Both the position numbers and the translations under genes were made by a program. The notes below the pieces were generated by a model. The model was not told where the DNA came from. It ran no database searches and saw only the letters and a list, made by a program, of their open reading frames with translations. From assembly GCA_016794165.1 (NCBI GenBank), contig JAEUKV010000005.1, positions 1 through 54,995 of the forward strand: DNA of 54,995 nt, written 5' to 3'. Source of the DNA: Rhodospirillaceae bacterium. Lineage in GTDB: Bacteria; Pseudomonadota; Alphaproteobacteria; Dongiales; Dongiaceae. This document shows, piece after piece, positions 6,146 to 27,240 of the stretch; positions within the stretch are counted from its first letter, which is position 1, and each line of letters begins with the position of its first letter.

Positions 6146-8056
<1,911 letters not shown>

Positions 8057-8123: not shown

Positions 8124-8651
8124 CTAGGCCGCTTCGGATTTGCGGTGATAGGCAATGGCGCAATGCTGGGCGCAATAGGGCCGCCCCGGCTCGGCGGATT
8201 CACCGCAGAAGTGAAACCCCGGCTGCTTCGGGTCGCCCACCGGCCAGGAGCAGGATTTCGACCCGGCCTGGGCCGCCGTGCGGGGTGCCGGCGGCGCCTT
8301 GGCCGCGGTGGGCTCGCTGGCCTGGGTTTCGACGCTGCTGCGCGGCGCATTCTGGACACCGGAGTTCTCGGTCACGGCGGCGGTCGTTGCCGTGGGTCGC
8401 ATGGCCGGCATCGGCGCCAGGGTCGGCTGCTGCCGGCGTTGGGATCCGGCGGATTTGCGGCGCGGCGCGGCACCGGCCTCGCTGCCGTCGCGCTTGATCG
8501 GCGAGGGCCGGCCGGTGAGGCCGAGCCGATGCGCCTTGCCGATCACGGCGTTGCGGGTGACGCCGCCCAGCAGGGTGGCGATCTGGCTCGCTGTCTGGCC
8601 CTGGCCCCAGAGCTTGCGCAGCATGTCAATGCGCTGTTCGGTCCATTCCAT
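8124..8651 (-). CDS. gcrA: GcrA cell-cycle regulator
   Basis: A 175-residue GcrA-family protein. In Caulobacter, GcrA binds sigma70 and activates promoters carrying GANTC sites methylated by CcrM. The N-terminal domain begins MEWTEQRIDMLRKLW and continues with GQTASQIATLLGGVTRNAV and GKAHRLGLTGRPSP, the conserved DNA-binding region (residues 1-50). A Pro/Ala-rich linker follows, then the C-terminal RNA-polymerase-binding region with SCSWPVGDPKQPGFHFCG and GRPYCAQHCAIAY. The start has a GGGGAG ribosome-binding site. A terminator follows at 8057-8080. Upstream lie a candidate promoter and a consensus DnaA box, matching DnaA control of gcrA known in Caulobacter. Confidence 0.96.
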   Translation of the reverse strand: MEWTEQRIDMLRKLWGQGQTASQIATLLGGVTRNAVIGKAHRLGLTGRPSPIKRDGSEAGAAPRRKSAGSQRRQQPTLAPMPAMRPTATTAAVTENSGVQNAPRSSVETQASEPTAAKAPPAPRTAAQAGSKSCSWPVGDPKQPGFHFCGESAEPGRPYCAQHCAIAYHRKSEAA

Positions 8652-8741
8652 GATGTCGTCTCCCCACCGGTAAAAGGCTGGCGATGTCGGCTGCCGGCGC
8701 TGGTCAGAAACCGGGCCGGCGCTAGATGTTGAGTGCGCATC

Positions 8742-8770
8742 ATTTCACTCCACAAGATGCAGAGTGGCAA
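8742..8770 (-). promoter_or_regulatory. Candidate gcrA promoter
   Basis: On the minus strand, TTGCCA (8765-8770) and TGAAAT (8742-8747) are separated by exactly 17 bp, giving 5/6 and 4/6 matches to the sigma70 -35 and -10 hexamers. The predicted start of transcription would be near 8735, leaving a leader of about 85 nt before the gcrA ATG. Prediction only. Confidence 0.4.
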
Positions 8771-8789
8771 GGGGGTATGCGCAAAATGT

Positions 8790-8798
8790 TGTGGATAA
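8790..8798 (-). promoter_or_regulatory. Consensus DnaA box upstream of gcrA
   Basis: TTATCCACA on the minus strand, a perfect match to the strong DnaA box consensus, lying 139 bp before the gcrA start and roughly 55-63 bp upstream of the predicted transcription start. DnaA activates gcrA in Caulobacter, so position and neighbour agree. Binding here is inferred. Confidence 0.6.
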
Positions 8799-8867
8799 AA
8801 GTGGATTTCCAGAGAACATATAGTGTCTGGACGGGCCACCGGCGGAAGCGGGCGGCAATATGACGAG

Positions 8868-9203
8868 TCAGTCGACCGGATTCAACTGCCGATCCAGGAG
8901 TTCGATCAGTTCCGGCAGCCGCCGCGACGATTTGATCTGCCGCTTGCCGGCCAGGAGGATGTAATTGGCATCCTTGTCCCCGCGCAGCAGGACCTTGGTG
9001 ATGGCGAAAGTCGGCTGTTCCTGGGCGCGGCGATAGACCGAGAACACCGCCATGTTGCTGCGGTGGTCGATGGCATAGTCGCGCCAGACGGCGTGCGCCA
9101 CCTTGCGGCTGTAGATCCCCAGCAAAAGATTGAGCTCGTCGCGGTTGAAGAAGACCCGGCGACCCTGACGGCGGTAATCGGCAAGAAGGACAAGCTGCGA
9201 CAT
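8868..9203 (-). CDS. DUF2794 family protein
   Basis: A 111-residue protein of DUF2794, a family known to me only from alphaproteobacteria and without a defined function. Recognisable features are the start MSQLVLLADYRRQGRRVFFN, then ELNLLLGIYSRKVAHAVWRDY and AIDHRSNMAVFSVYRRA, followed by a short beta-rich section with YILLAGKRQIKSSRRL. It is likely cytoplasmic, with no signal peptide or membrane segment. The ATG at 9203 gives the usual family length; the much longer upstream frame is not family-like. It stands alone between gcrA (same strand, 216 bp away) and a small lipoprotein gene (92 bp away). Confidence 0.9.
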   Translation of the reverse strand: MSQLVLLADYRRQGRRVFFNRDELNLLLGIYSRKVAHAVWRDYAIDHRSNMAVFSVYRRAQEQPTFAITKVLLRGDKDANYILLAGKRQIKSSRRLPELIELLDRQLNPVD

Positions 9204-9295
9204 GCTTTCCTTTTCGTTGCTGCCAACGACTCGGCGCGCAGTTCCGAGCCCAGGGAAAGTGTCGCCCAAACCCCGCGGCGCGTAAAGCGGGACCC

Positions 9296-27231: not shown

Positions 27232-27240
27232 TGTGGATAA
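27232..27240 (-). promoter_or_regulatory. Consensus DnaA box
   Basis: TTATCCACA on the minus strand, the perfect 9-bp DnaA consensus, in the 80-bp gap before the YgjP-like gene, 12 bp from its start codon. It is the second such perfect site in the window; both are intergenic. It could be a titration or regulatory site. Function not shown. Confidence 0.5.

Follow-up and report, generated by a model that had tools for sequence, protein, structure and literature searches.

In Caulobacter, activation of gcrA by DnaA has been established experimentally (PMC3193534, PMC8203912). In the genome considered here gcrA is preceded by a consensus DnaA box, which raises the question of whether this link is kept in the lineage, and of whether DnaA would be the only regulator to act at the promoter. 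An earlier note on the 54,995-nt stretch of DNA that was analysed (the window) had proposed that such a box lies about 60 bp upstream of the predicted transcription start of a candidate gcrA promoter and that the connection known from Caulobacter persists. The features that bear on these questions are collected in Table 1.

Table 1. Annotated and predicted features of the gcrA locus, in positions of the window.
Feature	Position	Strand	Remarks
gcrA, cell-cycle regulator GcrA	8124..8651	-	ATG at 8651; PF07750, E 5.9e-38
NrdR box 4 (predicted), ACTCAACATCTAGCGC	8719..8734	-	12.6 bits; about +1 to +16
-10 element TGAAAT of gcrA	8742..8747	-	from sequence; kept in relatives
NrdR box 3 (predicted), ACTCTGCATCTTGTGG	8750..8765	-	9.7 bits; -35/-10 spacer; strict pair with box 4, 31 bp
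-35 element TTGCCA of gcrA	8765..8770	-	from sequence; CTTGC kept in relatives
NrdR box 2 (predicted), CCACAACATTTTGCGC	8779..8794	-	13.1 bits; CCACA common to DnaA box; pairs with box 1
Perfect DnaA box, TTATCCACA	8790..8798	- (gcrA strand)	exact consensus match; overlaps NrdR box 2 by 5 bp
NrdR box 1 (predicted), ACACTATATGTTCTCT	8811..8826	-	7.3 bits; strict pair with box 2, 32 bp
DUF2794 protein gene	8868..9224	-	PF10984, E 3.3e-22; upstream neighbour of gcrA, strand shared

The DnaA box upstream of gcrA

Each of the 17 family genomes contains a gcrA orthologue. In the host genome the gene is separated by an intergenic region of 216 bp from the DUF2794 gene, which sets the upper boundary of the gcrA regulatory region. 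The candidate promoter of the earlier note, TTGCCA-17-TGAAAT, is indeed present on the minus strand (8770-8742), with TTGCCA at 8770-8765 and TGAAAT at 8747-8742 and a spacing of 17 bp between them. From its sequence this promoter is predicted to be sigma-70-like, with transcription starting near 8735. A start at this position puts the centre of the DnaA box about 59 bp upstream, in agreement with the distance originally given, and the box itself is an exact copy of TTATCCACA (8790-8798, minus strand), as had been claimed.

Loss of the box from beside gcrA in close relatives, which had been named as evidence against the proposal, was looked for and did not occur. In a comparison of oriented loci the box reads TTATCCACA in six of the seven congeners, the host genome included; the remaining one, Rhodospirillaceae bacterium R-7 (L051/L007), has a single mismatch (ATATCCACA). 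Five genomes of genera g4 and g7 carry CTATCCACA (four genomes) or TAATCCACA (one genome), and the 19-bp distance to the -35 element seen in the host genus is kept there. The two genomes of genus g5 have the degenerate form TTATCCCCA, and no clear DnaA box was seen upstream of gcrA in the aligned promoters of three more distant genera. Beyond the host genus the family therefore shows the box in degenerate form or not at all. In 12 family genomes the promoter elements are kept, as is the gap of 19 bp between box and -35, which argues that the DnaA box at gcrA exceeds chance.

The frequency of the motif has to be read with care. The window contains two exact copies of TTATCCACA against 0.08 expected from shuffles, but the 3.74-Mb genome holds only 14, and the reversed pattern occurs there 11 times. 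Since the reversed pattern is nearly as frequent, the genome-wide count was rejected as evidence; the count alone is not enriched, and it is location and conservation that are informative. Among Alphaproteobacteria outside the family, 186 distinct gcrA loci were compared, and in 34 of them a perfect box was present no more than 250 bp from the gene. The corresponding figures were 4/2079 for tiled windows and 2/224 for the upstream regions of other genes. Together with conservation in the congeners, this enrichment at gcrA across the class supports, at the level of sequence, the proposal that the link between DnaA and gcrA is kept in this lineage.

Most of the 14 perfect boxes of the genome are intergenic. 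One lies between hemE and a kinase/pyrophosphorylase gene (L038:1157-1165). The intergenic region on the hemE side is the usual location of the alphaproteobacterial oriC, and this box is probably part of oriC. Another is found just upstream of dnaB (L037, around 2001-2009); on the far side of this box, next to dnaB, is a CcrM-type methylase gene whose product is an N6_N4_Mtase and RAMA domain protein. Further perfect boxes lie just upstream of uvrC and of a GreA/GreB-type gene, and a YgjP-like metallopeptidase gene starts about 12 bp after the second box of the window (27232-27240).

NrdR-type palindromes across the promoter

The earlier reading of the gcrA promoter in terms of DnaA only is incomplete, because it missed a further set of predicted sites, one of which shares bases with the DnaA box. 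Alignment of the promoters brings out a repeated palindrome with a CWANATNTWG core and flanks, and the host promoter contains four such 16-bp palindromes, arranged as two pairs. In sequence they agree with the tandem boxes bound by NrdR, which senses ATP and dATP and represses ribonucleotide reductase (RNR) genes. Such boxes have been described as 16-bp sites with spacers of 15-16 bp, that is, a register of 31-32 bp (PMC12051234). A matrix trained on 38 nrdJ promoter boxes of the family, in which no gcrA sequence was included, found the four boxes at gcrA at spacings of 32, 29 and 31 bp. The core is matched in full by boxes 2 and 4 and with one mismatch each by boxes 1 and 3, which also score weaker with this matrix (7.3 and 9.7 bits). 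Boxes 1 and 2 form pair A, in the 32-bp register and upstream of the -35 element. Boxes 3 and 4 form pair B, in the 31-bp register over the -35/-10 spacer and the predicted start, so that the RNA polymerase site is overlapped by box 3 between -35 and -10 and by box 4 at the start. An NrdR-type pair at the positions of boxes 3 and 4 was present at gcrA in 17/17 family genomes, including those that have lost the DnaA box.

The specificity of this arrangement was assessed with a strict tandem-box pattern (at most one mismatch, both spacings of 31 and 32 bp) run over all 17 family genomes. In the host genome it returned four matches, one at nrdJ, two at gcrA (pairs A and B) and one in the promoter of an HNH-nuclease gene; the reversed tandem pattern gave no match in any of the 17 genomes. 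The match at nrdJ, which encodes a class II reductase, is at G000:C63:2510-2550, and the nrdJ promoters of the host and its relatives carry the same palindromes as gcrA, paired 31 or 32 bp apart. Only pairs were counted; single palindromes elsewhere in the genome were left out of the evidence because several of them fall inside coding sequence and are probably due to chance. The NrdR protein is encoded in all 17 genomes. DNA recognition by NrdR is reported to require D15, R17, R26, R28 and R37 (PMC12176259), and the host protein retains D15, R17, RRRR(26-29) and R37.

At the HNH-endonuclease gene the pair (L042:1917-1957, G000:C323) is in the 31-bp register, whereas four congeners have it at 32 bp. 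Just ahead of the ATG there is also a perfect DnaA box (L042:2001-2009), so that the promoter shows the same combination as that of gcrA. A single strong NrdR-like palindrome (7922-7937, 13.2 bits) was also noted within the window. It is intergenic and lies upstream of a gene (6146-7726) for a protein with collagen-like GPTGET repeats and RTX calcium-binding repeats.

Paired sites in the wider Alphaproteobacteria

A class-wide sample of Alphaproteobacteria was drawn, from which 109 gcrA upstream regions were obtained. NrdR-type pairs at 31-32 bp were found in 41 of these, in 27 further families; the control rates were 2/2079 for windows and 0/224 for regions upstream of other genes. The profile of box spacings at gcrA has its maximum at 31-32 bp, and its minor registers are compatible with arrays of three or four boxes. 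A secondary register of 19-21 bp was seen beside that of 30-32 bp at several loci (for example L054, L057 and L221), as if three to four boxes were arrayed there. As a positive control, nrdJ promoters were fetched separately, since the RNR loci of the class-wide sample were mostly of a shorter RNR that is boxless in this family. The scan detected pairs at 15 of 20 nrdJ genes, which indicates a sensitivity of about 75% at a known target. All 41 pair-positive genomes encode nrdR. At the cut-off used, about 60% of the sampled gcrA upstream regions were without an NrdR-type pair, and none was found at the gcrA loci of Sphingomonadales or of the sampled Azospirillum. A neighbouring RNR gene as the source of the gcrA boxes was considered and rejected, as tblastn found none adjoining gcrA in the loci checked.

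Both kinds of site could be compared in the 186 gcrA loci from outside the family. An NrdR pair was present in 51, a DnaA box in 34 and both in 14, and among these 14 the two sites overlapped in only four. One of the overlapping cases, TTATCCACAGGATATTGTGG in a Hyphomicrobiales MAG (L094), repeats the arrangement of the host.

A proposed dual control of gcrA

It seems likely from the arrangement of these predicted sites that DnaA would activate gcrA while NrdR, loaded with nucleotides, would repress it from overlapping positions, and that gcrA would so sense both initiation and dNTP supply. At reductase genes an NrdR tetramer spans two boxes three helical turns apart and kinks the DNA (PMC9110341). 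When dATP is plentiful relative to its use, a tetramer carrying ATP and dATP may similarly bind each pair at gcrA, bending the DNA and blocking RNA polymerase as at the reductase genes. As replication depletes dNTPs, NrdR would depart and DnaA at its box could then activate gcrA. The bases that are shared could not hold DnaA and NrdR together, so the two would compete. Expression of gcrA would be expected when available DnaA coincides with ongoing use of dNTPs. GcrA would become responsive both to initiation (via DnaA) and to nucleotide supply (via NrdR), and would pass this responsiveness on to the CcrM/GANTC programme. With somewhat less confidence we regard it as probable that gcrA is a core and ancient NrdR target across much of the Alphaproteobacteria, where a dATP/ATP sensor would directly gate the DnaA-GcrA-CcrM cascade and competition between DnaA and NrdR at overlapping sites would act as a transcriptional checkpoint coupling dNTP supply to cell-cycle progression.

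That NrdR would repress gcrA rather than activate it is inferred from its action at RNR genes. Activation has a precedent at topA of Pseudomonas aeruginosa, which is like gcrA in being an NrdR target outside the RNR genes and which NrdR activates (PMC4409342). The topA promoter differs, however, in having only one box. At gcrA the boxes form tandem pairs, and pair B lies over the -10 spacer and the start, an arrangement also seen at RNR genes under repression (PMC9110341). We consider binding of NrdR to gcrA as an activator improbable.

It is very unlikely that the palindromes are operators of another regulator or, in the case of the box at +1, a hairpin in the 5' end of the mRNA. Box 4 does sit at the transcript start and could form a short stem, and a single similar site occurs at the promoter of mdh. 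Boxes 1 to 3, however, are outside the transcript, and the hairpin was rejected because it leaves these three boxes upstream of the start unexplained. The motif, its length and its spacing are those of the nrdJ promoters and of published NrdR boxes (PMC12051234), and the genome-wide tandem pattern recovers nrdJ. The mdh site (a malate dehydrogenase gene, named from sequence) is the palindrome CTCAACATCTAGAG at L172:1915-1928 (G000:C262), behind a CTTGCC-type promoter, and is perhaps a lone NrdR box.

NrdR boxes often start with CCACA, and the DnaA box could therefore have been a mere by-product of the flank of functional NrdR boxes. The shared CCACA bases are part of box 2, and in the sister genus the DnaA box is variable at position 1. 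As regards INDEPENDENCE of the DnaA and NrdR signals, CCACA upstream of gcrA was preceded by TTAT in 37/178 cases (21%) as against 5/905 (0.6%) in control DNA, and at gcrA loci without an NrdR pair TTAT still preceded CCACA in 18/82 cases. This excess, present also where there is no pair, argues that the DnaA box is not such a by-product, and many loci have perfect DnaA boxes well apart from their NrdR boxes. There is accordingly little to be said for the by-product explanation, which we judge no more probable than that of another regulator. Least likely of all is that the DnaA box alone matters, with DnaA activating gcrA and the palindromes incidental. Conservation of the box, its strong enrichment at gcrA and the link established in Caulobacter (PMC3193534) speak for this reading. 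Against it, the palindromes recur in the 31-32 bp register, both in the 27 further families and in those members of the family from which the DnaA box has been lost, and pairs are absent from the 224 upstream regions of other genes.

The dual control proposed here combines elements that are known separately, since DnaA at gcrA is already known and NrdR boxes are known at reductase genes and at Pseudomonas topA (PMC4409342). As in Caulobacter crescentus, one DnaA box lies upstream of a single-copy gcrA, and the host genome also has a CcrM-type methylase and a DnaA box beside hemE (PMC3193534); two members of the Caulobacter-type DnaA-GcrA-CcrM-CtrA circuit, GcrA and a CcrM-type methylase, are thus both present. 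The host differs in the two predicted NrdR pairs that extend across its promoter and in the bases that its DnaA box shares with one of the NrdR boxes, and an NrdR input to C. crescentus gcrA is not described in the literature examined. With NrdR-repressed RNR promoters (nrdJ, nrdAB) the gcrA promoter has in common 16-bp CWANATNTWG palindromes in pairs 31-32 bp apart that overlap the promoter (PMC12051234, PMC9110341), but the target is a cell-cycle transcription factor and there are two full pairs instead of one. The nearest known arrangement is the nrdAB promoter of E. coli, to which both DnaA and NrdR bind (PMC12176259, PMC8203912) and which governs dNTP synthesis and not a cell-cycle regulator. 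This gives a context for the gcrA DnaA box and the bases it shares with an NrdR box. In nrdJ promoters of the sister genus (L157, L159, L164), TTATCCACA was likewise found near the NrdR boxes.

NrdR has been described as RNR-specific (PMC9110341), and in the literature examined Pseudomonas topA was the only other target (PMC4409342), against which NrdR-type sites are now seen at the cell-cycle master regulator gcrA in at least 28 alphaproteobacterial families. The literature search found no link between NrdR and gcrA and no mention of COG5352, although an earlier prediction in passing is possible (the 2005 NrdR regulon paper, RegPrecise). The relation of cell-cycle transcription to nucleotide supply in alphaproteobacteria is now directly testable with one promoter and one purified protein.

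Control of the host gcrA by CtrA was considered and rejected, as no CtrA site (TTAA-N7-TTAA) was seen by eye in the 260 bp upstream of the gene. Two genomes of the sister genus (L008, L009) have a perfect CtrA-like TTAA-N7-TTAA at a distance of about 210 bp upstream of the gene. In genus g5 (L021, L044) three GANTC sites are packed beside the -35 element, 100-130 bp upstream of gcrA, and this cluster may represent a CcrM/GcrA feedback.
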